Shown: piece after piece, positions 40,800-57,904 of the stretch
Layout: each line of letters opens with the position of its first letter
Numbering within the stretch: the first letter of the stretch is position 1
Assembly: GCF_008041935.1 (NCBI RefSeq)
Contig: NZ_VKAC01000003.1
Coordinates: 310,001-374,000 of the forward strand
DNA length: 64,000 nucleotides
Origin: Quadrisphaera setariae
GTDB lineage: Bacteria > Actinomycetota > Actinomycetes > Actinomycetales > Quadrisphaeraceae
Direction: 5' to 3'
The notes under the pieces: model-generated
Told to the model about the DNA's origin: nothing
What the model saw: the letters and a program-made list of their open reading frames with translations, nothing else
The model's database searches: none
Program-made: the position numbers and the translations under genes

Positions 40800-41465
40800 T
40801 CAGATGACCGAGCGGACCGCCACCTCGAAGCCCTTGACGTGCTGCGCCGCGCGGTGGCCCGCGTCCGCCCCCTGGCCCGCCGCGATGGCCCGCAGCAGCT
40901 CCACGTGCTCGCTGACGTGGCCGTCGACGGCGGGGAGCCGGTCGAGGAACAGGCAGAAGATCCTCGTGGCCAGGTTGTGGTGCCGCACGAGCGCGTCCTC
41001 CAGGTGCGGGTTGCCCGCGACCTTGTAGATGGCGCGGTGCACCTGCGCGTCGTAGTAGATGAGGTCGTGGTTGCTCGTCGTCGTGAGGTCGAGCCGCTCC
41101 AGGCGGTCGGCCAGGTCGAGCAGCTCCTGGCGCTCCGCCGGTGTGGCGCGCTCCGCCGCCCGCTGCGCGGCGAGGGGTTCCAGCAGCGCGCGCACCTCGG
41201 AGATGTGGGCGAGGTCGGTGATGTCCACGCCGGTGGCGAAGGTGCCGCGGCGCGGGTAGGTGACGATGAGGCGGTCCACCTCGAGGCGCTTGATGGCCTC
41301 GCGCACGGGTGTCTTGCCCATCTGCAGCTGCTCGGCGAGCGCGTCGTCGTCGAGGGGTTCGTTGGGGCGGATGTCGAGCATGATCAAGCGGTCGCGGATC
41401 TCCGCGTAGGCGCGCTCGGCCAGGGACGAGTAGCGCTCCTCGCGAAGGCCGGTGACCTGCTCCAC
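40800..41465 (-). CDS. GntR-family regulator, FCD subfamily
   Basis: A 221-aa repressor/activator at the edge of the betaine island. The winged HTH (LAEQLQMGKTPVREAIKRLEVDRLI) is followed by an all-helical FCD ligand domain with metal-ligand positions in YYDAQVHRAIY, HVSEHVELLRAI and AAQHVKGF. The GTG lies 6 nt after TACAGT (rc of 41472-41477), leaderless. It is the best candidate to bind the CTGATRCATCAG palindromes at glyA and the BCCT gene, although its own promoter lacks that site. Confidence 0.88.
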   Translation of the reverse strand: MEQVTGLREERYSSLAERAYAEIRDRLIMLDIRPNEPLDDDALAEQLQMGKTPVREAIKRLEVDRLIVTYPRRGTFATGVDITDLAHISEVRALLEPLAAQRAAERATPAERQELLDLADRLERLDLTTTSNHDLIYYDAQVHRAIYKVAGNPHLEDALVRHHNLATRIFCLFLDRLPAVDGHVSEHVELLRAIAAGQGADAGHRAAQHVKGFEVAVRSVI

Positions 41466-41548: not shown

Positions 41549-42196
41549 TCACGACCGGCTCCGGCGGGCCAGGTCGAGGAACTCGGCCCGGGTGCGGGCG
41601 TCGCTGCGCACCCGGCCCCTCAGGGCGGAGGTGCGCGTGAGGGCCCCCACCGCGCGGACCCCCCGCAGCGACATGCAGGTGTGCTCGGCCTCGAGCACCA
41701 CCCCCACGCCGTCCGGGTCCAGCGCCTCCTGGAGCAGGTCCGCCACCTGGCACGTCAGGCGCTCCTGCACCTGGGGCCGCCGCGACAGCGCCTCCACGAC
41801 CCGGGCGAGCTTGGACAGCCCCACCACGCGCGAGCCCGGCAGGTACCCGACGTGGGCCACGCCCGAGAAGGGCAGGAGGTGGTGCTCGCACAGCGACGTG
41901 AAGGGGATGTCGCTGACCACGACCAGCTCGTCGTAGCCCTCGTCGTTGGGGAACGTCGTCAGCGCGAAGGGCTCCGGCGTGAGCAGGTCGGCGTAGGCCC
42001 GCGCCACGCGCCGCGGCGTGTCCTGCAGCCCGGGAGCACCCGGGTCCAGCCCGAGGGCCACCAGCAGCTGGCCCACGGCGCGCTCGGCGGCGGCGGGGTC
42101 GACCGGGGGGGAGGAGGGCGCCACCTGCGCGAGCGAGCGCTCGCGGTCCAGGTCCTCGTCGGGCCTGGGCGGGGGGACGGTTGTCGCAGACCTCAT
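41549..42196 (-). CDS. folE: GTP cyclohydrolase I
   Basis: Converts GTP to dihydroneopterin triphosphate, the first step of folate synthesis. The 215-aa protein has the zinc/active-site SLCEHHLLPFSGVAHVGYLP, LSKLARVVEALSRRPQVQERLT, and the late TCMSLRGVRAVG Cys/Arg motif. ATG with a strong GAGGAGAGG upstream. It is divergent from glyA across a 126-nt region carrying the shared palindrome, which ties folate supply to THF-dependent demethylation. Whether it is the sole folE cannot be told. Confidence 0.94.
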   Translation of the reverse strand: MRSATTVPPPRPDEDLDRERSLAQVAPSSPPVDPAAAERAVGQLLVALGLDPGAPGLQDTPRRVARAYADLLTPEPFALTTFPNDEGYDELVVVSDIPFTSLCEHHLLPFSGVAHVGYLPGSRVVGLSKLARVVEALSRRPQVQERLTCQVADLLQEALDPDGVGVVLEAEHTCMSLRGVRAVGALTRTSALRGRVRSDARTRAEFLDLARRSRS

Positions 42197-42261
42197 GTCG
42201 ACCTCTCCTCACGACCGGATGTGGAGCGGCCCCCTTGACCCGAGGGGCGGCGGTCCCTACG

Positions 42262-42291
42262 TTACCGGCAACTGATACATCAGTGTTCAGT
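42262..42291 (+). promoter_or_regulatory. glyA promoter with palindromic operator
   Basis: TTACCG (42262-42267), 18-nt spacer and TTCAGT (42286-42291) form a plausible promoter. The spacer contains ACTGAT-AC-ATCAGT (42271-42284), a perfect 6-bp inverted repeat. The same core recurs at 53775-53786 at an equivalent position. Binding there would occlude RNA polymerase. Confidence 0.6.
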
Positions 42292-42322
42292 CCACAGGCT
42301 CCACTCCGCCGAAGGGGGCGAC

Positions 42323-43678
42323 ATGACCGCAGGGCTCCACCAGCAGCTCCGGCAGCCGGAGGGGGTGCTCGACCGCTCGCTGGCCGACACCGACCCGGAG
42401 GTCGCCGCCGCTGTCGACGCGGAGCTCCTGCGCCAGCAGAGCACGCTGGAGATGATCGCCAGCGAGAACTTCGCGCCGGTGGCCGTCATGCAGGCGCAGG
42501 GCTCGGTGCTCACCAACAAGTACGCCGAGGGCTACCCGGGTCGGCGCTACTACGGCGGCTGCGAGAACGTCGACGTCGTCGAGCAGCTCGCCGTCGACCG
42601 GCTCAAGGCCCTCTTCGGTGCCGGCTTCGCCAACGTCCAGCCGCACTCCGGGGCCCAGGCCAACGCCGCCGTCATGCACGCGCTCCTCAAGCCCGGGGAC
42701 ACCATCCTCGGGCTCGACCTGGCGCACGGTGGGCACCTGTCGCACGGCATGAAGCTCAACTTCTCCGGCCGGCTCTACGACGTCGCCGCCTACCACGTCC
42801 GCGAGGACGACCACCGCGTCGACATGGACGAGGTCGAGCGGCTCGCCCGCGAGCGACGTCCACAGCTGATCATCGCCGGCTGGTCGGCCTACCCCCGCCA
42901 GCTCGACCTCGCGCACTTCCGCCGCATCGCCGACGAGGTGGGTGCCCTGCTGGTGGTGGACATGGCGCACTTCGCGGGCCTGGTGGCCGCCGGGCTGCAC
43001 CCCAGCCCGCTGCCCCACGCGCACGTCGTCACCTCCACCACGCACAAGACCCTGGGCGGTCCGCGTGGCGGCATCATCCTCAGCAACGACCCCGCGATCG
43101 CGAAGAAGGTCAACAGCGCGGTGTTCCCCGGTCAGCAGGGCGGCCCGCTGGAGCACGTCATCGCGGCCAAGGCCGTGGCGTTCAAGCTGGCCGCCGAGCC
43201 GGCGTTCACGGAGCGCCAGGAGCGCACGCTGCGCGGTGCGCGGATCCTCGCCGAGCGGCTCACCTCCCCGGAGGCCACCGCGGCCGGCATCGGCGTGGTC
43301 AGCGGCGGCACCGACGTGCACCTCGTGCTCGTCGACCTGCGCCACTCCGACCTCGACGGCCAGCAGGCGGAGGACCGCCTGCACTCCATCGGCATCACCG
43401 TGAACCGCAACGCGGTGCCGTTCGACCCGCGCCCGCCGATGGTCAGCTCCGGTGTCCGCATCGGCACTCCGGCCCTGGCGGCCCGCGGATTCGACGACGA
43501 CGACTTCCGCGAGGTCGCCGACATCATCGCCACCGCGCTGCAGCCCGGCACCAGCGAGGGGCAGCTGGCCGAGCTCGGCCAGCGGGTCCACGACCTCGCG
43601 CAGGCCCACCCCCTCTACCCGCACCTGTCGCCCCTGTCCTCTGAGCCGACCCGGCAGACCACGGAGACGAGCCGATGA
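42323..43678 (+). CDS. glyA: Serine hydroxymethyltransferase
   Basis: Interconverts glycine plus 5,10-methylene-THF with serine plus THF. The 451-aa PLP enzyme has the PLP-lysine motif [16 protein letters not shown], the N-terminal [31 protein letters not shown], and [13 protein letters not shown]. In this operon it uses the glycine and a methylene-THF made by the downstream oxidases. The ATG has GAAGGGGG upstream; it overlaps soxB by ATGA. Confidence 0.97.
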
Positions 43679-44994
43679 CCACCGTCGACGCCTTCTCGAC
43701 CGATCCGGACGACGCCGTCCCCCACACCCCCGCGGCTGCCGCCGCGGGCCGGCTCAACGGCACCCCTCCCCGCACCCCGGGCGCGGACCTGCCGGAGCAC
43801 CCCGACGCGCTGTGGAAGAACCCCGAGCCGAAGAAGGCCTACGACGTCGTCATCGTCGGCGGCGGCGGCCACGGCCTCGCGACGGCGCACTACCTGGTGA
43901 AGAACCACGGCATCACGAACATCGCGGTGCTGGAGAAGGGGTGGCTCGCGGGCGGCAACATGGCCCGCAACACCACCCTCATCCGCTCCAACTACCTGTG
44001 GGACGAGAGCGCCGCCATCTACGAGCACTCCCTCAAGCTGTGGGAGGGGCTCGAGGAGGACCTGGGCTACCCGATCCTCTTCAGCCAGCGCGGCGTGCTG
44101 AACCTCGCGCACACGCTGCAGGACGTGCGCGACAGCGTGCGCCGCGTGGAGGCGAACGTCCTCAACGGCGTCGACGCCGAGTGGGTCGAGCCCGACGAGG
44201 TCCGCAAGATCTGCCCGATCGTCAACACCTCCACCGACATCCGCTACCCGGTGCTGGGCGCCACGTACCAGCCGCGCGCGGGCATCGCCAAGCACGACTA
44301 CGTGGGCTGGGGGTTCGCCCGGCGCATCGACGAGGCCGGCGTCGACATCATCCAGAACTGCGAGGTCACCGGCTTCGTGCGCGACGGCAACCGCATCACC
44401 GGGGTGCGCACCACCCGCGGCGACATCGCCTGCGGCAAGGTCGCGCTGGCCGCCGCCGGCAGCACCTCGGTGCTCACCGACATGCTGGGCCTGCGCGTGC
44501 CGATCCAGTCCCACCCGCTGCAGGCGCTCGTCTCCGAGCTCCTCGAGCCGGTGCACCCCACCATCGTGATGTCCAACGCCGTGCACGTGTACGTCTCCCA
44601 GGCGCACAAGGGCGAGCTGGTCATGGGCGCCGGCGTCGACGCGTACAACGGCTACGGGCAGCGCGGCGCCTTCCACATCATCGAGCGGCAGATGGCCGCC
44701 GCGGTGGAGCTGTTCCCCGTCTTCGCGCGGGCGCACCTCCTGCGCACCTGGGGCGGCATCGTGGACACCACCCCCGACGCCTCGCCCATCGTCGGACGCA
44801 CCCCGTACGACAACGTCTTCCTCAACTGCGGGTGGGGCACCGGCGGCTTCAAGGCCACCCCGGGCCTGGGCTGGGTGTTCGCGGACACGATCGCCAACGA
44901 CGAGCCGCACCCCTACGCCGCGCCGTTCTCCCTCGACAGGTTCGTCACCGGACGCCTCGTCGACGAGCACGGCGCCGCCGCCGTGGCCCACTGA
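43675..44994 (+). CDS. soxB: Sarcosine oxidase, beta subunit
   Basis: A 439-aa flavoprotein subunit of the heterotetrameric sarcosine oxidase, where sarcosine is oxidised. After a 55-residue leader the FAD-binding [19 protein letters not shown] appears, then the [19 protein letters not shown] motif, and the late [12 protein letters not shown] and [13 protein letters not shown]. It is the normal length for SoxB. Coupled to glyA by 4-nt overlap. Produces glycine, methylene-THF and H2O2 with SoxA/D/G. Confidence 0.96.
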
Positions 44995-45029
44995 CGCCCC
45001 CGCCGACCCGCAGAGCCAGGAGACCCGAC

Positions 45030-45308
45030 GTGCAGATGATCCAGTGCCCGTGGTGCGGGCCCCGCGAGGAGGTCGAGTTCCACTACGGGGGCCAGGCCCA
45101 CGTGCCCTACCCCTCCGAGCCGGCGGCCCTGTCCGACGAGGAGTGGGCCCAGTACCTGTTCTTCCGCGACAACACCCGCGGCCTGTTCGCCGAGCGCTGG
45201 TCGCACAGCGCCGGCTGCCGCAAGTGGTTCAACGCCGTGCGCGACACCGTCACGTACCGCTTCCACGCCACCTACCGCCCCGACGAGCCCCGGCCGGTGA
45301 CCGCATGA
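45030..45308 (+). CDS. soxD: Sarcosine oxidase, delta subunit
   Basis: A 92-aa subunit that binds zinc: CPWCGPREEVEF at the N-terminus and SAGCRKWFNAVRDT near the C-terminus are the SoxD signature. GTG 45030 has AGGAGA upstream. Overlaps soxA by ATGA. Order B-D-A-G is the canonical operon order. Confidence 0.95.
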   Translation: MQMIQCPWCGPREEVEFHYGGQAHVPYPSEPAALSDEEWAQYLFFRDNTRGLFAERWSHSAGCRKWFNAVRDTVTYRFHATYRPDEPRPVTA

Positions 45309-48244
45309 GCGAGACGACCTCCACCACCGCGGCCGCCGCGCAGGCGCGCGGGTCCTTCCGCACCCCGACCGGGGGCCGCGTGGACCGCACCAGCCCGGTC
45401 GCGTTCACCTTCGCCGGCGTGGAGCACACCGGCTACCGCGGCGACACCCTCGCCTCGGCCCTGCTCGCCGACGGCGTGCACCAGATCGGCACCAGCATCA
45501 AGCTCGGCCGCCCCCGCGGCGTGGGCGCGGCCTGGGCCGAGGACCCGAGCAGCCTGGTCCAGGTGGAGGAGCCCTTCCCGGACCCGATGCTGCTGGCCAG
45601 CACCGTCGAGGTCTTCGACGGCCTCGTGGCCGACGGCGTCCCCGGCCAGGGCCGGCTCGCCGACATCGCCGACTCCGCCCGCTACGACTCCCGCCACCTC
45701 CACGTCGACCTGCTCGTCGTCGGCGCCGGCCCCGCGGGCCTGCAGGCGGCGCTGACCGCTGCCCGCTCCGGCGCCCGCGTGGCGCTGCTCGACGAGCAGG
45801 CCGAGGCCGGCGGTTCGCTGCTCGGCTCCGACGACGTGCTCGACGGCCGTCCGGCCCTGGAGTGGGTGGCGGACGCCGTGGCCGAGCTCGCGGCCGCCCC
45901 CGAGGTCGTGCACCTGCAGCGCACCACGGTCTTCGGCGTCTACGACGACGGCTTCGCGCTCGCCGTCGAGCGCCGGACCGACCACCTCGGCGGCGCCGCT
46001 CCCGAGGGGACCTCGCGCCAGCGCGTGTGGCGCGTCCGCGCCCGCCGCACGGTGGTCGCAGCCGGCGCCCACGAGCGTCCCGTCGTCTTCACCGACAACG
46101 ACCGCCCCGGCACCATGCTCGCCGGCTCGGCGCGGACCTACCTGCACCGCTACGGCGTGCTCGCCGGCTCCCGCGCGGTGGTGTTCACCACCAACGACAG
46201 CGCCTACCGCAGCGCCGTCGACCTCGCCGACGCGGGCGTGACCGTGGCCGCCGTCGTCGACACCCGCGACGTCGCTCCCGCCCACTGGGCCGCGGAGCTG
46301 GAGCGCCGCGGCGTGCCGCTGCGCACCGGGAGCGCCGTCGTCGGCACCCGCGGTGTCGAGCGCGTCTCGGCCGCCCTGGTGGCCCCGTACGACCGCGCCG
46401 GCCTCGCCGCCGGCGCCCGCTCCGGCTCGGGCGTGGAGCCCGAGGCGCTCGAGTGCGACCTGCTGCTCGTCAGCGGCGGTTGGAACCCGGCGGTGCACCT
46501 GCACAGCCAGGCGCGCGGGAAGCTCGCCTTCGACGCCGGTCTGGGGGCCTTCCTGCCGGCCGAGCGCCTGGAGGACCTGCTGGTCGCGGGCTCGGCCGCC
46601 GGCACCTTCGACCTGCAGACCTGCCTGCGCCAGGGCGGCGCCTCCGCCGCGACGGCGCTGTCGGAGCTGGGCCTCGACGTCACCGCGGTCCCGGTGCCCT
46701 CGGCCGGTGAGCGGTCGGCGGTCGCCTCGTCGACCGCTCCCGACCTCGTCTGGGTGGTCCCGGACCCGTCCGGCGACAGCAGCCGGCAGTTCGTCGACGT
46801 GCAGCGCGACGCCACCGTGGCCGACGTCGAGCGGGCGCTCGGTGCTGGCCTGCGCTCCCCGGAGCACGTCAAGCGGTACACGACCATCGGCACCGCCCAC
46901 GACCAGGGCAAGACCTCCGGCGTCGTCACGTCGGGGATCATCGCCGAGCTGCTGGGCTCCGCCCCGGACGCCGTGGGCACCACGACGTTCCGGCCCCCGT
47001 ACACGCCGGTCGCCTTCGCGACGCTCGCCGGACGCGACCGCGGCCAGCTGTTCGACCCGGTCCGCACCACCTCCGTGCACGACTGGCACGTCCAGGCCGG
47101 AGCGGTGTGGGAGGACGTCGGCCAGTGGAAGCGCCCGCGCCACTACCCGCTCGCGGGTGAGGACATGGAGACCGCGGTGCTGCGCGAGTGCGCCGCCGCC
47201 CGCGCTGGCGTCGGCATCCTCGACGGCTCAACCCTCGGCAAGATCGACGTCCAGGGCCCTGACGCCGGTGAGCTGCTCGACAGGCTCTACACCAACCTCA
47301 TGAGCAGCCTCGCCGTCGGCAAGGTCCGCTACGGGGTCATGTGCGGCGCCGACGGCATGGTCATCGACGACGGCACCGTGCTCCGCGTCGCCGAGGACCG
47401 CTTCCTCGTCATGACGACGACGGGTGGTGCCGCCAAGGTCCTCGACTGGATGGAGGAGTGGCACCAGACCGAGTGGCCCGAGCTGCGGGTGCACCTCGCC
47501 TCGGTGACCGAGCAGTGGGCGGCCTTCCCGGTGGTCGGCCCCCGCTCGCGCGACGTCATCGGCGCTGTCTTCAGCGACGTCGATGCCAGCAACGACGCCT
47601 TCGGCTTCATGACCTGGCAGGACACCACCCTCGACGGCGTGCCGGTCCGCCTGGCGCGCATCAGCTTCTCCGGGGAGCTCGCCTGGGAGGTCCACGTCGA
47701 CTCCCGCTACGGCCTGGCGGTCTGGGAGCGGCTGGTGGAGGCCGGACGCCCCTACGGCATCACCCCCTACGGCACCGAGACCATGCACGTGCTGCGAGCT
47801 GAGAAGGGCTACCCGATCATCGGGCAGGACACCGACGGCACGGTCACCCCGCAGGACCTCGGCATGGCCTGGGTGGTGTCCAAGAAGAAGCCGGACTTCG
47901 TGGGCAAGCGCTCCTTCGCCCGCGCCGACAACCAGCGCGAGGACCGCAAGCAGCTCGTCGGGCTGCTGCCCGTCGACCGCACCACCGTGCTGCCGGAGGG
48001 CTCGCAGATCGTCGAGCACTCCGAGAGCGGTGAGCTGCCGCCCCCGCCCGTCCCGATGCTCGGGCACGTCACCTCCAGCTACCGCAGCGCGCACCTCGAG
48101 CGCCCGTTCGCCCTGGCTCTGCTCAAGGGCGGCCGCGCCCGCGAGGGCCAGCTGGTCCACGTGCCCGTCGGGGGCCGCCTCGTCGCCGCAGAGGTGACCG
48201 GTCCCGTCCTGGTCGACCCCGAAGGAGCCCGCCGCGATGGCTGA
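45305..48244 (+). CDS. soxA: Sarcosine oxidase, alpha subunit
   Basis: A 979-aa subunit with an N-terminal Fer2-like barrel (about 25-110), an NAD/FAD-binding Rossmann core starting at VVGAGPAGLQ (138-147) with AAGAHERP, and a C-terminal GcvT-like THF-binding domain (about 590-970; WMEEWHQTEWPELRV, FSGELAWEVHVDS, TPYGTETMHVLRAEKG). The GcvT part captures the one-carbon unit as methylene-THF. Full family length. It overlaps soxD by 4 nt and soxG by 8 nt. Confidence 0.96.
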   Translation: MSETTSTTAAAAQARGSFRTPTGGRVDRTSPVAFTFAGVEHTGYRGDTLASALLADGVHQIGTSIKLGRPRGVGAAWAEDPSSLVQVEEPFPDPMLLASTVEVFDGLVADGVPGQGRLADIADSARYDSRHLHVDLLVVGAGPAGLQAALTAARSGARVALLDEQAEAGGSLLGSDDVLDGRPALEWVADAVAELAAAPEVVHLQRTTVFGVYDDGFALAVERRTDHLGGAAPEGTSRQRVWRVRARRTVVAAGAHERPVVFTDNDRPGTMLAGSARTYLHRYGVLAGSRAVVFTTNDSAYRSAVDLADAGVTVAAVVDTRDVAPAHWAAELERRGVPLRTGSAVVGTRGVERVSAALVAPYDRAGLAAGARSGSGVEPEALECDLLLVSGGWNPAVHLHSQARGKLAFDAGLGAFLPAERLEDLLVAGSAAGTFDLQTCLRQGGASAATALSELGLDVTAVPVPSAGERSAVASSTAPDLVWVVPDPSGDSSRQFVDVQRDATVADVERALGAGLRSPEHVKRYTTIGTAHDQGKTSGVVTSGIIAELLGSAPDAVGTTTFRPPYTPVAFATLAGRDRGQLFDPVRTTSVHDWHVQAGAVWEDVGQWKRPRHYPLAGEDMETAVLRECAAARAGVGILDGSTLGKIDVQGPDAGELLDRLYTNLMSSLAVGKVRYGVMCGADGMVIDDGTVLRVAEDRFLVMTTTGGAAKVLDWMEEWHQTEWPELRVHLASVTEQWAAFPVVGPRSRDVIGAVFSDVDASNDAFGFMTWQDTTLDGVPVRLARISFSGELAWEVHVDSRYGLAVWERLVEAGRPYGITPYGTETMHVLRAEKGYPIIGQDTDGTVTPQDLGMAWVVSKKKPDFVGKRSFARADNQREDRKQLVGLLPVDRTTVLPEGSQIVEHSESGELPPPPVPMLGHVTSSYRSAHLERPFALALLKGGRAREGQLVHVPVGGRLVAAEVTGPVLVDPEGARRDG

Positions 48245-48836
48245 CACGCTGGTGCCCCTGCCCCGCACCCACCCGCTGGACGTCCGTCCGGACCTGACCG
48301 GGGCCACCGCCGGCGCGGTGCGCGTCGAGCAGGTCTCGGCCATGGTCCAGGTCCGGGCCGCGCTGCCCGGCCCGGCGGCCGACGCCGTCGCCCAGGTGCT
48401 CGGCGTGCCGCTGCCCGCCCGGCCGGGCACCTGGGTGCCCACGCCGGCCGGCGGCCGCGTCGTGTGGCTCGGTCCCGACGAGTGGCTGGTGACCGACCCG
48501 GCGGCTCCCTCGTGGGACCTGGAGTCGCGGCTGCGCTCCGCAGCCGCCCCGGCCGGCGGGGCCGCGGTGGACGTGTCGGCGCAGCGCGTGGTGCTCCGCC
48601 TGAGCGGTCCGCACGCCCGCGACCTGCTCGCCGCCGGCTGCGCCGTCGACACCCACCCCTCGGTGTTCACCAGCGGGTCGGCGGCGCAGACGCTGCTCGG
48701 CCAGGCCGGCGTCGTCCTGCTGGCCCTGTCCGACGACGGACGCGACTACGAGGTGCTGGTGCGGTCGTCCTTCGCGCGCTACCTCGCCGACTGGCTCGCC
48801 GACGCCGCCACCGAGCACCGCACCACCGGCGCCTGA
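48237..48836 (+). CDS. soxG: Sarcosine oxidase, gamma subunit
   Basis: A 199-aa subunit of the sarcosine oxidase. It has the SoxG pattern: HPL near the N-terminus, VWLGPDEWLVTDP in the centre, DVSAQRVVLRLSGPHARDLLAAGCAVD, and the late YEVLVRSSFARYLADWL. It belongs to the GcvT-related fold. ATG inside the last codons of soxA. Confidence 0.93.
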   Translation: MADTLVPLPRTHPLDVRPDLTGATAGAVRVEQVSAMVQVRAALPGPAADAVAQVLGVPLPARPGTWVPTPAGGRVVWLGPDEWLVTDPAAPSWDLESRLRSAAAPAGGAAVDVSAQRVVLRLSGPHARDLLAAGCAVDTHPSVFTSGSAAQTLLGQAGVVLLALSDDGRDYEVLVRSSFARYLADWLADAATEHRTTGA

Positions 48837-52741
<3,905 letters not shown>

Positions 52742-52753
52742 GGAGGCACCCCC

Positions 52754-53644
52754 GTGACCACCACCGACGCTGCGCCCACCGCGGCCCCCGCACGGACCAG
52801 CACCGCCGTCCTGTCGCTGGTCTGCCCCCAGCAGCCCGGCATCGTGAACGCGGTGACGTCCTTCCTGTACCAGCAGGGGCACGACATCGTGGAGCACCAG
52901 CAGTTCGACGACGCCCTGTCCGGCAGGCTCTACTCGCGCACGGCGTTCTCCAGCATCGACGGCGGCGTGGACGTCGCCCAGCTCCAGGCGGCGTTCGCCC
53001 CCATCGCGCAGAAGTACGGCATGGACGTGACGTTCAGCGGTGGCGAGCGCCAGCGGGTGCTCGTCATGGTCTCGAAGATGGGGCACTGCCTGAACGACCT
53101 CATCTTCCGGTGGCGCTCGGACACCCTCGCCGGCGACCTCGTCGCCGTGGTCTCCAACCACGAGGACCTGCGCCCGATGGCGGAGGCCGCCGGGCTGCCG
53201 TTCCACCACGTGCCGATCACCGCCGCCACCAAGCCGGAGGCCGAGGCGCGGCTGCTGGAGCTGGTGGACGAGCACGAGGCCGACCTCGTGGTGCTGGCCC
53301 GCTACATGCAGGTGCTCTCCGACGACGCCTGCCGCAAGCTCCGCGGGCGGGCCATCAACATCCACCACTCGTTCCTTCCGGGCTTCAAGGGCGCCAAGCC
53401 CTACCACCAGGCGTTCGACCGGGGGGTGAAGCTCGTGGGCGCCACGGCCCACTACGTGACCCCCGACCTCGACGAGGGCCCGATCATCGAGCAGGAGGTC
53501 ATCCGCATCGACCACACGCACGACCCGGCGGCGCTGGCCACCGTCGGCCGCGACGCCGAGGCCCTGGCGCTGTCGCGCGCGGTGAAGTGGCACTGCCAGC
53601 AGCGCGTGCTGCTCAACGGCCACCGCACCGTCGTCTTCCGCTGA
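52754..53644 (+). CDS. purU: Formyltetrahydrofolate deformylase
   Basis: Hydrolyses 10-formyl-THF to formate and THF. The 296-aa protein has an N-terminal ACT domain ([19 protein letters not shown]) and a formyl-transferase domain with the catalytic [20 protein letters not shown] (Asn/His) and [13 protein letters not shown] (Asp). GTG with GAGGAGG 7 nt upstream, 12 nt after sdaA. It regenerates free THF for further demethylation, explaining its place in this operon. Confidence 0.95.
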
Positions 53645-53667
53645 GCCCGCGGCGCCCCTGAGCCCGT

Positions 53668-53707
53668 CCGACGAGCACCCGCCCCGCTGGGGGCGGGTGC
53701 TCGTCGG
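53668..53707 (+). terminator. Strong hairpin after purU
   Basis: A perfect 18-bp stem (53668-53685 with 53690-53707) with a GCTG loop, 23 nt after the purU stop. It closes the glyA-purU operon. Confidence 0.85.
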
Positions 53708-53763
53708 CGTCCCGGTCGTCGGGCTGACCAGGCCCGCAGCCACGACCAGTTGCCTCCAGACTC

Positions 53764-53793
53764 TTGACCTGGCACTGATGCATCAGACATCGT
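53764..53793 (+). promoter_or_regulatory. BCCT-transporter promoter with the shared palindrome
   Basis: TTGACC (53764-53769), 18-nt spacer and CATCGT (53788-53793) resemble a promoter. The spacer holds CTGATGCATCAG (53775-53786), a perfect palindrome matching the glyA site. The next 106 nt before the ATG show no other clear signal. Confidence 0.6.
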
Positions 53794-53899
53794 GTTACAT
53801 CTAGATCACGCGCGGCAGAGTTGCCCGCGTCCTGCCTAGGGTGCAAGTCCCCGTTCCACCCGGCCCAGGCCCACCCGCCTGTCGTGAGAGGACCAGCTC

Positions 53900-55513
53900 A
53901 TGTCGCTCGACAACGGAGCCCCCCCGGAACACCGCCACCGCAAGCAGCCCATCGACAAGCCCGTGCTGGCGGTCTCGGCCGTCGTCGTCGTGGCGCTGTG
54001 CGCCGTCGGCATCGTCGTCCCGGACCAGCTCGCGAAGGTCTCCGGAGCCTGGCTGGGCTGGATCACCGGCAACCTGGGCTGGGCCTTCGCCGTCAGCGCC
54101 AGCGGGTTCGTGGCCCTCGCCCTGGTGCTCGCCTTCAGCCGCGTCGGCCGGATCCGCCTCGGCGCCGACCACGAGCGCCCGCAGTTCAGCCGGGCCTCGT
54201 GGATCGCCATGATGTTCTCCGCCGGCATGGGCATCGGCCTGATGTTCTACGGCGTCACCGAGCCCGTCACCCACCTCATGACCCCGCCCGAGGGCGACGT
54301 GACGCCGGGCACGCCGGCCGCGGCCGACGAGGCGATGCAGTACACGCTGTTCCACTGGGGCCTGCACCCGTGGGCCATCTACGCGGTCGTCGGCCTCGCC
54401 CTGGCCTACTCCACCTACCGCAAGGGCCGCCCGGGCGGCTTCTCCGCCGCGTTCGCCCCGCTGCTGCGCGGGCCCCGCGGCCGCGGTGCGGCGAAGGCCA
54501 TCGACGTCCTCGCCATCTTCGCCACCGTCTTCGGCTCCGCGGTCAGCCTGGGCCTGGGCGCCGCGCAGATGAACGGCGGCCTCACCCACGTCTTCGGCAT
54601 CGCCAACGGCACGGGCGTGCAGGTCGCGATCATCGCGGTGCTCACCGCGTGCTTCGTCATCAGCGCCGTCAGCGGCATCGAGCGCGGCGTCAAGATCCTG
54701 TCGAACACCAACATGGTGCTGGCCGGGCTCCTGCTGCTCTTCCTCTTCGTCGTCGGCCCGACGGTCTTCATCCTCGACATGGCCCCCAACGCGGCCGGCA
54801 ACTACCTCGCCGCGCTCCCGCACATGTCGCTGCGGACGGGCGTGTTCGGCGGCCAGGAGTGGCTGTCCGGCTGGACGATCTTCTACTGGGCCTGGTGGAT
54901 GTCGTGGACGCCCTTCGTGGGCGCCTTCCTCGCCAAGATCTCGCGCGGCCGCACCATCCGCGAGTTCGTCATCGGCGTCATGCTCATCCCCACGCTGGTG
55001 AGCCTCATCTGGTTCTCCGTCTTCGGCGGCACCGCCATCAACGCCCAGCTGACCGGCGCCCTCGACGTGCTGGCCGACAGCGACCAGACCGCCCAGATGT
55101 TCAACCTGCTGGCGCTGTTCCCGTGGTCCGGGCTGACGTCGATCCTCGTCGTGCTCCTGGTGGCGATCTTCTTCGTCTCCGGTGCCGACGCCGCGAGCAT
55201 CGTCATGGCCTCGCTGTCGAGCAACGGTGACGACGAGCCCCGCCGCTGGCTCACCGCCGCCTGGGGAGGCATCACCGGCGTGGTGGCGATCGTGCTGCTC
55301 CAGGCCGGTGGCCTCCAGGCGCTGCAGAACCTCACGATCATCGCCGCCACGCCGTTCCTCGTGGTGATGGTCCTCATGTGCTGGGCGCTGCTCAAGGACC
55401 TGCGCGGCGACAAGGCGCCGATCACGGGGCAGTTCCCGGTGGTGCCACCCGCGGCCGGCGTCCCCACGGGCCGCTCGGCCCAGGAGCCCCGCAAGGTCAC
55501 GATCAGCGACTGA
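53900..55513 (+). CDS. BCCT-family betaine/choline transporter
   Basis: A 537-aa transporter with 12 TM helices. The BCCT signatures are FSAGMGIGLMFYGVTEPVTH (Gly-rich TM3) and IFYWAWWMSWTPFVGAFLAK (aromatic substrate box, TM8). Likely glycine betaine uptake with Na+ or H+. There is no long C-terminal regulatory tail as in choline BetT. Own promoter with the shared palindrome; ends in a bidirectional hairpin with iclR. Confidence 0.93.
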   Translation: MSLDNGAPPEHRHRKQPIDKPVLAVSAVVVVALCAVGIVVPDQLAKVSGAWLGWITGNLGWAFAVSASGFVALALVLAFSRVGRIRLGADHERPQFSRASWIAMMFSAGMGIGLMFYGVTEPVTHLMTPPEGDVTPGTPAAADEAMQYTLFHWGLHPWAIYAVVGLALAYSTYRKGRPGGFSAAFAPLLRGPRGRGAAKAIDVLAIFATVFGSAVSLGLGAAQMNGGLTHVFGIANGTGVQVAIIAVLTACFVISAVSGIERGVKILSNTNMVLAGLLLLFLFVVGPTVFILDMAPNAAGNYLAALPHMSLRTGVFGGQEWLSGWTIFYWAWWMSWTPFVGAFLAKISRGRTIREFVIGVMLIPTLVSLIWFSVFGGTAINAQLTGALDVLADSDQTAQMFNLLALFPWSGLTSILVVLLVAIFFVSGADAASIVMASLSSNGDDEPRRWLTAAWGGITGVVAIVLLQAGGLQALQNLTIIAATPFLVVMVLMCWALLKDLRGDKAPITGQFPVVPPAAGVPTGRSAQEPRKVTISD

Positions 55514-55543: not shown

Positions 55544-55586
55544 GCCCGGCTGAGCCGGTGGCCCTGCGCCTCCGGCTCAGCCGGGC
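55544..55586. terminator. Bidirectional hairpin between BCCT gene and iclR
   Basis: A perfect 15-bp stem (55544-55558 with 55572-55586), loop 13 nt, overlapping the last codons of the minus-strand iclR gene. Confidence 0.8.
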
Positions 55587-56347
55587 TTGACCGCGCCCAG
55601 GCGCCAGGAGGCCCGCGCTGCGGCGGCCACCACGTGCGCGGCGATCGACGGGAGGGCCTCCGGGGTCATCCGGTAGGTGGGGCCCCCGACGGTCATCGCC
55701 GCGGCGACCGTGCCGTCGGCGGCCCGCACCGGTGCCCCGACCACCACCAGGCCCGTCTCGTGCTCCTCCTGTGCGGCGGCCCAGCCCCGCGTCCGGACGA
55801 GCCGCAGGTCCTCCTCCAGCCCCCGCTGGTCCACGAGGGTGCGGTCGGTGAACCTCTCCAGGCCGCCGCCGCACAGCTCGGCGAGGCGGGCCGCAGGCCA
55901 CTCCGCCAGGAACACCTTCCCCGCGGCCGTGGCGTGCAGCGGGCCGCGGCGCCCCACGTAGTCGGTGCTGGCCACGATGGAGCCGCCGGCGGCCTGGTCC
56001 ACGGTGGTGATCTGCACCCCGTCGCTCACCACGAGGTTGACCGTGTCGCCCACCTCCTCGGCGAGCTGGGCGCACAGCGGCCGGCACAGCGCGGTGACGT
56101 CCTTCGCCCCCGCGGCACCGGCCGCCAGCTGCGCCGCCGACGGGCCCAGGCGGTAGCGGCCGCGCTCCCCGTCCTGCTGGACCAGCCCCCGCGCCTCCAG
56201 CGTGGCCAGGAGGCGGAAGGCCGTGGCCTTGTGGATCCGCACGCCGGCGGAGAGCTCCGTCAACCCCGCGGGGCCGTGGGCGGCCAGTGCCTGGAGCAGG
56301 GAGACGGCCCTGTCGACGGACTGGACCGTGGACGCGTCGTTCCGCAT
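55577..56347 (-). CDS. IclR-family transcriptional regulator
   Basis: A 256-aa regulator. Winged HTH (LTELSAGVRIHKATAFRLLATLEARGLVQ shortened here to its core HKATAFRLLATLE) at residues 30-75, then a GAF-like effector domain with YVGRRGPLHATAAGKVFLA and the late GAPVRAADGTVAAAMTVGGP. Divergent from gbcAB, so probably controls betaine demethylation. ATG lies 6 nt after TAGTGT, leaderless, and a GTTCCG-N5-CGGAAC repeat overlaps its start codon. Confidence 0.9.
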   Translation of the reverse strand: MRNDASTVQSVDRAVSLLQALAAHGPAGLTELSAGVRIHKATAFRLLATLEARGLVQQDGERGRYRLGPSAAQLAAGAAGAKDVTALCRPLCAQLAEEVGDTVNLVVSDGVQITTVDQAAGGSIVASTDYVGRRGPLHATAAGKVFLAEWPAARLAELCGGGLERFTDRTLVDQRGLEEDLRLVRTRGWAAAQEEHETGLVVVGAPVRAADGTVAAAMTVGGPTYRMTPEALPSIAAHVVAAAARASWRLGAVKPG

Positions 56348-56493: not shown

Positions 56494-56587
56494 TCGCTGG
56501 CGATGGAGCTGGTGAGCCGAGCACCCCTGGCACCGCCGAGAGCCCCCCACCTCGACACCGCAGATGCCGGTCCCGAAGGGAAGTCCC

Positions 56588-57904
56588 ATGACCACGCAGC
56601 TCACGCCCCCCGCCAGCACGAGCGCACCGGCCTCTCCTGGCGTCGAGGCTCCGGCTCCCGGCGCCAGCGCCGCCGAGCTCGTGGCGCGCCGCCGCAAGGG
56701 CTACAGCCTCGAGGGTGATTTCTACACCAGCCAGGAGGTCTACGACCTCGACGTCGACGTGGTCTTCAGCAAGAACTGGATCTTCGTGGCGGCCGCTGCC
56801 GAGATCCCCGAGGCCGGTGACTTCGTGACCGTGGACGTCGGGAAGGCGTCGGTCATCGTGGTGCGCGACGACGACGACGAGATCGCCGCCTTCCACAACG
56901 TCTGCCGCCACCGGGGGTCGCGCCTGCTGGAGGACAAGGGCTTCGTGGGCAACATCGTGTGCCCCTACCACCGCTGGACCTACGCCCTGGACGGCTCGCT
57001 GCTGCACGCCGAGTCCCAGCCGCCGACCTTCGACAAGACCTGCTTCTCGCTGCGCAAGGTGCACGTGCGCAACCTCGCCGGGCTGGTCTTCATCTGCCTG
57101 GCCCCCGAGGCTCCTGCCGACTTCGACGAGGTCGCGAAGATCGTCGAGCCGCACCTGCTGCCCTACCAGCTCGACAAGGCCAAGGTGGCCCGCCAGGTGG
57201 ACCTGCCCGAGGCGGGCAACTGGAAGCTGGTCATGGAGAACAACCGCGAGTGCTACCACTGCGACGGCCACCCCGAGCTCATCAGCGCCTACTTCCCGAT
57301 CTTCGCCTACGACGAGGAGGACATCACCCCTCGTCTCAAGCCCCTGTACGACCGGTACACGAAGGCCGCGGACGCCCTCGCCGAGAAGCGCCGGGAGCAG
57401 GGCACGCCCCTGGCCGACCACATGCAGCTCGACACCCGCCAGGTGGGCTTCCAGCTGACCCACCTGCCCCTGGACGGCGAGGGCAAGTCGTTCGCCGCGA
57501 ACGGCGCCGCCGTCTGCTCCAAGCTCATCGGCGAGGTCAAGGACGCCGCCTTCGGAGACCTGTCGCTGCACATGCAGCCCAACAGCTGGTTCCACTTCCT
57601 CGGCGACCACGCCGTCGTCTTCTCGGTCATGCCGACCTCGCCCAGCACCAGCGTGCTGCGCACCACCTGGCTGGTGCACCCGGACGCGGAGGAGGGCGTC
57701 GACTACGACCTCGAGGCCCTGTGCACCGTGTGGAACGCCACCAACGACCAGGACCGCGTGCTGGTGACCAACACCCAGATCGGCTGCAGCGACCCGAGCT
57801 ACGTGCCCGGCCCCTACTCGATGGTCGAGGACCAGGTCGAGGGCTTCGTGAACTGGTACGTCACCCGCCTGCGCGAGCACCTGGGCGTCGAGGCCACGGC
57901 ATGA
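56588..57904 (+). CDS. gbcA: Glycine betaine monooxygenase, Rieske subunit
   Basis: Oxidises betaine to dimethylglycine plus formaldehyde with O2. The 438-aa protein has the Rieske ligands in CRHRGSRLL and CPYHRWTYALDG, and the mononuclear iron site in NNRECYHCDGHPEL. The N-terminal RRRKGYSLEGDFYTSQEVYDLD is typical of GbcA rather than aromatic dioxygenases. ATG 56588 has GAAGGGA upstream. Overlaps gbcB by ATGA. Stachydrine or carnitine demethylase is the nearest alternative. Confidence 0.92.
   Translation: MTTQLTPPASTSAPASPGVEAPAPGASAAELVARRRKGYSLEGDFYTSQEVYDLDVDVVFSKNWIFVAAAAEIPEAGDFVTVDVGKASVIVVRDDDDEIAAFHNVCRHRGSRLLEDKGFVGNIVCPYHRWTYALDGSLLHAESQPPTFDKTCFSLRKVHVRNLAGLVFICLAPEAPADFDEVAKIVEPHLLPYQLDKAKVARQVDLPEAGNWKLVMENNRECYHCDGHPELISAYFPIFAYDEEDITPRLKPLYDRYTKAADALAEKRREQGTPLADHMQLDTRQVGFQLTHLPLDGEGKSFAANGAAVCSKLIGEVKDAAFGDLSLHMQPNSWFHFLGDHAVVFSVMPTSPSTSVLRTTWLVHPDAEEGVDYDLEALCTVWNATNDQDRVLVTNTQIGCSDPSYVPGPYSMVEDQVEGFVNWYVTRLREHLGVEATA

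Follow-up and report, generated by a model that had tools for sequence, protein, structure and literature searches.

The sarcosine locus and its two palindromes

We examined a 64-kb stretch of the Quadrisphaera setariae genome (the window; positions 310001-374000 of one contig in a genome of 4.91 Mb and 33 contigs), in which two palindromes with the common core TGATRCATCA lie before genes for betaine and sarcosine use and are predicted to be operators of a GntR-family regulator encoded in the same window. This FCD-type GntR protein, the predicted binder, is encoded on the minus strand at 40800-41465 (Pfam GntR PF00392, 51.4 bits, cut-off 27; FCD PF07729, 75.4 bits, cut-off 24.3), downstream of folE on the same strand (41549-42196; GTP cyclohydrolase I, folate supply; PF01227, 211 bits). 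On the plus strand, glyA (42323-43678; serine hydroxymethyltransferase; PF00464, 507 bits) is the first gene of a predicted operon and is followed by soxB (43675-44994; sarcosine oxidase subunit beta; TIGR01373, 620 bits, cut-off 529), soxA (45305-48244; subunit alpha, assigned by reading frame, position and by eye, with a soxD-like frame just 5' of it), soxG (48237-48836; subunit gamma, by reading frame and position), a predicted dimethylglycine dehydrogenase/oxidase-like enzyme (48885-51365; Pfam DAO, FAO_M and GCV_T), sdaA (51362-52741; serine dehydratase; Pfam SDH_alpha and SDH_beta) and purU (52754-53644; formyltetrahydrofolate deformylase, which releases formate; TIGR00655, 327 bits, cut-off 286).

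Three further genes complete the locus: a BCCT-family transporter, probably for betaine (53900-55513, plus strand; Pfam BCCT 627 bits; betaine_BCCT 579 bits, below its cut-off of 650), an IclR-family regulator that is the rival candidate binder (55577-56347, minus strand; Pfam IclR_C and HTH_IclR; nearest NCBIfam model BhcR with 175 bits, below the cut-off of 350), and a gbcA-like glycine betaine monooxygenase (56564-57904, plus strand; GbcA model 412 bits, below the cut-off of 670), upstream of which no CTGATRCATCAG match occurs at up to two mismatches. The unidirectional order glyA-soxBDAG-sdaA-purU is present in the window and in relatives (soxD, soxA and soxG by reading frame and position), and the actinobacterial sarcosine cluster has been described in the order glyA, soxB, soxD, soxA, soxG, sdaA, purU (PMC3534580).

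A preceding sequence-only reading had located palindromes with this core at 42271-42284 and 53775-53786, and both are present there. Operator 1, ACTGATACATCAGT (42271-42284), occupies the divergent region between folE (minus) and glyA (plus) and matches the 14-mer ACTGATRYATCAGT without mismatch; operator 2, ACTGATGCATCAG (53774-53786), contains CTGATGCATCAG at 53775-53786 and ends 113 nucleotides (nt) 5' of the transporter's ATG at 53900. Exact CTGATRCATCAG copies in the window are confined to these two operators. At up to two mismatches the window holds 8 matches against an expectation of 3.59 +/- 2.58 from 100 shuffles, 7 of which reached 8; the looser count in the window alone is thus unremarkable, and significance comes from the whole genome.

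The core promoter of glyA-sox spans 42235-42263 on the plus strand (TTGACC at 42235-42240, a 17-nt spacer, TACGTT at 42258-42263), and its TTGAC and TAC(A)GT are kept in congeners, as seen in an alignment of 8 orthologous promoters. The operator begins 7 nt 3' of the -10 element, at about +1 to +14 of the inferred start site; from this spacing it should overlay the glyA-sox transcription start, which is the classic roadblock position. The same promoter-then-operator order occurs in other genera (TTGACC-17-TACTGT and 7 nt to the operator in L258, a Blastococcus locus; TTGACA-17-TAGGCT and 8 nt in L047; TTGACC-18-TACAGT and 5 nt in L036). The sequence-only reading had placed each operator 3-5 nt downstream of a -35 element, inside a promoter spacer of 18 nt, and had argued from this identical placement for a single repressor. 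At glyA the alignment does not support a site between -35 and -10, and the two promoters differ in where the operator sits; the glyA promoter had been misread, and the argument from identical placement fails for that reason. At the transporter, the operator does lie 4 nt after TTGACC (53764-53769), a hexamer whose TTGAC is missing in 2 of the 6 congeners (G011, G012); a good -10 element at 17-18 nt from it was not found.

Directly 3' of the transporter operator, at 53794-53809, lies GTTACATCTAGATCAC, which is largely invariant in the six Quadrisphaera genomes. We take it to resemble a GlnR-type GTnAC-n6-GTnAC box, which could add nitrogen control.

Distribution of the operator in Quadrisphaera and other actinobacteria

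We found TGATRCATCA at five places in the Q. setariae genome and its reversed control at none. Four of the five lie 5' of betaine or one-carbon genes (folE/glyA, the BCCT transporter, fdhA and fdhF), and the fifth lies inside a sugar-permease coding sequence. With ACTGATRYATCAGT at up to one mismatch, all five places found lie 5' of betaine/one-carbon genes, namely folE/glyA-sox, the transporter, fdhF, mscR and a second glyA. The two places at two mismatches are both inside predicted unrelated coding sequences, and at three mismatches the pattern is noise (32 matches versus 124 for the reversed pattern). The sequence-only reading had named the glyA/folE and transporter promoters; both belong to the set, which is widened by fdhF, fdhA, mscR and the second glyA. 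The fdhF site lies about 40 nt 5' of a gene for an FdhF/YdeP-family oxidoreductase (TIGR01701, 880 bits versus cut-off 582), fdhA is a glutathione-independent formaldehyde dehydrogenase by TIGR02819 (748 bits versus cut-off 637), and mscR, likewise a formaldehyde dehydrogenase, is named by TIGR03451 (667 bits versus cut-off 513, scanned on the G008 ortholog, to which the Q. setariae copy is 98% identical).

Within the genus the two main sites are constant, as the sequence-only reading had asked of orthologous promoters: all six Quadrisphaera genomes have a site between folE-gntR and glyA or soxB, and all six have one 5' of the BCCT gene, where every promoter carries ACTGATRCATCAG. The mscR site occurs in all four Quadrisphaera genomes examined for it (G000, G008, G009, G010). 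The GntR gene is present in 9 of 13 genomes of the family, and 8 of these 9 have a site at glyA/soxB. These eight form the promoter alignment, in which all 14 operator columns are invariant and most flanking columns vary; the ninth, G001, has no site and was left out.

In the order (149 genomes; thresholds E<=1e-40 for GntR and E<=1e-110 for SoxB), GntR and SoxB matches fall in an identical set of 35 genomes, so that no genome with SoxB and without GntR, a natural knock-out, was met among the 149 at these thresholds. A genome scan for the motif in relatives had been proposed as a check. In 55 other GntR-carrying genomes, ACTGATATATCAGT at up to one mismatch gave 50 sites, 41 of them at gntR/glyA/soxB promoters, against 2 for the reversed pattern. 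The 29 such genomes of the order outside the genus contributed 27 sites in 23 genomes (reversed control 1), of which 21 are at gntR/glyA/soxB promoters, 3 precede a YkvI-like membrane protein and 3 are at other genes. From named records came 26 genomes (Mycolicibacterium, Mycobacterium, Pseudonocardia, Geodermatophilus, Blastococcus, Gordonia, Antrihabitans, Amycolatopsis and Sinomonas; 26 of 27 loci scanned; outside the scan L164, L148, L150, L152, L153 and L158) with 23 sites in 18 genomes (reversed control 1). Twenty of these are at gntR/glyA/soxB promoters, including two second-glyA promoters and a divergent mscR/glyA pair in Blastococcus; of the remaining three, one precedes a Gordonia gene that adjoins sdaA and looks by eye like an amino-acid permease, while G174 holds the other two, at unrelated positions. 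The YkvI-like (n=3) and Gordonia permease (n=1) sites were not counted as core targets.

In neighborhoods of up to 20 kb, sites at up to two mismatches fell within -300 to +30 nt of the estimated starts of 12 reference genes (the pathway genes, gntR and iclR) in 28 of 36 cases (L098-L127) and 39 of 42 cases (L135-L166), in regions that make up 7% and 9% of the sequence. With the reversed pattern, 2 sites were obtained in each of the two sets, and no site was present in the neighborhoods of 4 of 30 and 5 of 32 loci. In a genome of another family (G092), a single locus (L126) brings together gntR, fdhF, fdhA, purU, gbcAB-like genes and the gene for the dimethylglycine enzyme, and purU is separated from gntR by a site with two mismatches. 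It looks like a gathered form of the regulon that is dispersed in Quadrisphaera.

The GntR protein and competing explanations

The structure model of the GntR protein (mean predicted local distance difference test score, pLDDT, 91.7) has six helices after the wing, and its closest folds in the PDB are GntR-family regulators, among them PmiR, VanR, McbR and the FCD protein TM0439. An FCD metal site consists of an Asp in addition to three His. D139, H143 and H209 are invariant in the 37 aligned GntR orthologs and H187 is kept in 35 of them, which fits this known site. Each of the three His also has a His counterpart in TM0439, a protein whose metal ligands have been named (PMC6608401). From this fit a small carboxylate would be expected as ligand (PMC4494728).

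The operator has the form TGAT-2 nt-ATCA. In 41 sites counted on both strands, the position that corresponds to the G of GT in the subfamily consensus is A in 70 of 82 strand-halves and G (TGGT) in 12. The consensus published for the FadR subfamily, TKGT/ACMA, separates GT from AC by 3 nt, or by 2 nt in UxuR, HypR and others (PMC4494728), and the TGRT-2 nt-AYCA symmetry resembles the 2-nt class. In the recognition helix, residue 51 is Lys in all six Quadrisphaera proteins and Arg in the 31 others among the 37 orthologs aligned. The centers of most Quadrisphaera sites are RC/GC/GT and not AT. A covariation of this residue with the site center gave no clean link, for the sister-genus genomes G005 and G006, with Arg, also have AC/GT centers.

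Across the order, CTGATRYATCAG is found in 16 of 35 genomes with GntR versus 12 of 114 without it (Fisher p=1.7e-5), and in 12 of the 16 it stands at gntR/glyA/soxB. No pathway protein was seen near CTGATRYATCAG at 12 loci in genomes lacking GntR (one locus per genome, 3 kb each; G031 and G114 partly covered). G031, a 2.7-Mb genome without GntR, holds eight copies of CTGATRYATCAG, seven of them CTGATGCATCAG, and was inspected at one locus; G114 has 2 sites. We name GntR as the predicted binder because its gene adjoins the operator, because it occurs together with sox and because of the kind of palindrome, and the comparison supports the view that one regulator, most likely this FCD GntR protein, reads these promoters. 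The single repressor proposed in the sequence-only reading thus gains comparative support, with the operator beside gntR or folE-gntR in all six Quadrisphaera genomes and the site kept where IclR is absent.

One rival for the operator is the IclR-family regulator at 55577-56347, a neighbor of the transporter and of gbcA. It was matched (E<=1e-35) in 35 of 149 genomes, 27 of them shared with GntR; it adjoins the BCCT gene in all 6 Quadrisphaera, and in family f14 iclR and gntR genes point away from each other, with near-matches in the gap that separates them. However, the site does not track the IclR gene. Among the 8 genomes with GntR and no IclR match, 6 carry a glyA or soxB site with no more than one mismatch, and in the remaining two a two-mismatch site stands before glyA or sdaA, whereas among the 8 with IclR and no GntR, CTGATRYATCAG is present in 1 and is not near any reference pathway gene; the IclR/gbcA region itself holds no copy at up to two mismatches. 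On this co-occurrence pattern we reject IclR as the main reading, and ownership by IclR appears very unlikely. Slightly less so, and still unlikely, is a distant regulator, such as a global one-carbon or nitrogen regulator, to which GntR would be a bystander. Such a regulator would suit the spread of the Q. setariae sites over five contigs (fdhA included), the targeting of second glyA copies in two Mycobacterium genomes, as expected of a general glycine/one-carbon regulator, and the existence of a GntR gene without site in G001. Against a distant regulator stand the lower frequency of CTGATRYATCAG in genomes lacking GntR and the lack of pathway genes at their 12 loci, although glyA is a near-universal gene. 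Moreover, the copy met most often lies directly next to gntR or to the gene divergent from it.

A DtxR-family metal regulator of the TroR/MntR type is a further candidate, since the TroR operator oligonucleotides contain TTTTGATATATCAAAA and TTTGATGCATCAAA (PMC2628430). The flanks differ, however (ACTGAT...ATCAGT here), the shared core amounts to no more than TGAT-2 nt-ATCA, the genes concerned all belong to a single pathway, and none of the five best Q. setariae sites lies beside a recognized metal transporter, in a genome that was not searched for DtxR-family proteins; we regard this explanation as highly improbable. Least credible of all is a chance set of AT-rich palindromes near promoters. 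It would agree with the lack of a clear excess of looser matches in the window, but is contradicted by the best places in the 4.9-Mb genome, all five of which fall in one pathway, by the 50 sites versus 2 reversed in 55 further genomes, and by the aligned orthologous promoters.

Several observations weigh against control of the whole gene set by GntR. The half-site is TGAT and not the usual TKGT of the subfamily, and the 10-bp core is shared with the TroR operators. The fdhA copy, a weaker one, keeps the TGATGCATCA core intact and has three mismatches to the 14-mer, which puts it in the noise class; it is found in 4 of 6 Quadrisphaera (absent in G009 and G012). The fdhF site is present in 3 of 5 congeners with the gene (exact in G000, one mismatch in G010, two in G011); G012 has none at up to two mismatches, in G008 fdhF follows gntR on the same strand without a site of its own, and G009 gave no fdhF match. 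The second-glyA site is 251 nt away from the start of its gene and comes right after a gene for glucose-6-phosphate dehydrogenase; the mscR site has a divergent gene resembling a tRNA synthetase on its other side. Outside the genus, presence of the GntR gene was the basis on which genomes were selected, so that adjacency is partly built in, and the whole-genome scan and its reversed control are the less biased parts of the comparison. There, 6 of 29 and 8 of 26 GntR-carrying genomes (14 of 55) have no ACTGATATATCAGT site at up to one mismatch, and some sites are at other genes (G111 C2, G017 C12, G092 C1 and the two in G174). G004 has a core match inside a coding sequence and no GntR gene. In G001, of a sister genus, gntR adjoins glyA with no site within three mismatches, so that the expected presence of the motif in orthologous promoters, complete within Quadrisphaera, breaks down here. 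Between the two G001 genes (L032/L128) only a degraded GTTGATATATCTGC with four mismatches is seen.

Predicted control of betaine-methyl oxidation

We consider it highly probable, on comparative grounds, that the FCD GntR protein at 40800-41465 has ACTGATRYATCAGT as its operator, in most relatives in the form ACTGATATATCAGT, and controls a betaine/one-carbon regulon through it. A GntR dimer would bind the palindrome and, between folE and glyA, would overlay the glyA-sox start and shut off the breakdown of betaine-derived sarcosine. Through the unlinked promoters (BCCT, fdhF, fdhA, mscR and the second glyA), uptake, demethylation, and formaldehyde and formate oxidation would be tied to the same signal: demethylation releases formaldehyde or its folate adduct, which would pass to mscR/fdhA and then to FdhF. 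A pathway metabolite entering the metal-containing FCD pocket may release GntR. Our guess for this inducer is sarcosine or a neighboring N-methylglycine, with dimethylglycine, betaine or a formaldehyde-linked signal as alternatives. We infer that the regulator also controls its own synthesis via folE-gntR.

A bolder version of this scheme is possible, though we hold it to be rather unlikely. In several orders of actinobacteria, one FCD-GntR would govern the whole path by which the methyl groups of betaine are oxidized to CO2. It would sense not betaine but the formaldehyde-generating step (sarcosine/dimethylglycine or a formaldehyde adduct) and would pair each demethylation with two formaldehyde dehydrogenases and a formate dehydrogenase; the YkvI-like protein and the amino-acid permease would be further members, as transporters not recognized so far.

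The regulator is of a known kind. With the FadR/FCD subfamily the system shares the FCD domain, the winged helix-turn-helix, an even palindrome, a divergent gene arrangement and the expectation of carboxylate-type ligands (PMC4494728), and it differs in the half-site (mostly TGAT versus TKGT) and in its targets, which belong to sarcosine/betaine and formaldehyde metabolism; the main text of that survey does not use the word 'sarcosine' (PMC4494728). HypR of Streptomyces coelicolor is likewise an actinobacterial FCD repressor with a three-His metal site (His142/186/208; here His143/187/209), but serves the hydroxyproline pathway and has the operator CTNTGC(A/C)ATGTCAC (PMC6608401). The sequence-only reading had not known the core as a described operator. 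The 10 bp as such are described, since the operators of TroR (Treponema, DtxR family) share the core TGATATATCA / TGATGCATCA and a repressor near the promoter, and differ in protein family, flanks and the manganese/iron transport genes they control (PMC2628430). For the operator as a whole the statement may hold: among the matches listed, from a coverage that leaves out most subscription journals, none describes this GntR, operator or regulon in print. We present the operator and regulon as new, as a prediction well supported by comparison.

Sarcosine oxidation genes are under known control in other bacteria. GbdR, SouR and SoxR belong to other families and have activator mechanisms. None of them is known to serve the actinobacterial glyA-soxBDAG cluster. 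SoxR with sigma-54 in Bacillus thuringiensis controls sarcosine oxidation genes, as do GbdR and SouR in Pseudomonas (as cited in PMC8864220). The C. glutamicum route FadH/Ald/FdhF similarly takes formaldehyde to CO2, by a mycothiol-dependent formaldehyde dehydrogenase and FdhF, and the accessible part of its description mentions no shared operator or GntR control (PMC4609165). With our results, a widespread actinobacterial sarcosine cluster gains a predicted regulator and an exact operator, and the stripping of methyl groups is joined to the disposal of formaldehyde and formate under one predicted switch. The system may lend itself to use as a sensor in sarcosine or one-carbon engineering, a few promoters are at hand for a simple binding test, and unannotated membrane proteins are flagged as candidate transporters.

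The YkvI-like protein (named by eye) is one of these. It follows an operator in three genomes of two families (G052, where the site is also beside gntR, G106 and G118; L063:290-1423, L062:1650-2774, L252:1841-2992), and in L063 and L252 it gave no Pfam match at 1e-5 and no NCBIfam match at 1e-10; it is a candidate transporter for sarcosine or a relative. Several other loci have arrangements of their own. The fdhF ortholog of L176 (G010:C10) has one in-frame TGA. In a Mycobacterium genome (L255:3010), a second glyA and a gene divergent from it, by eye a betaine-aldehyde dehydrogenase, have an operator between them, and in L137, L139, L141 and others (Mycolicibacterium/Mycobacterium) two GntR paralogs are adjacent, with operator-like sites between them and before glyA or soxB. 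In G076, a genome without this GntR, ACTGATATATCAGT occurs upstream of a uronate isomerase-like gene (by eye; L060:1501), where perhaps a UxuR-like FCD regulator uses the same operator.

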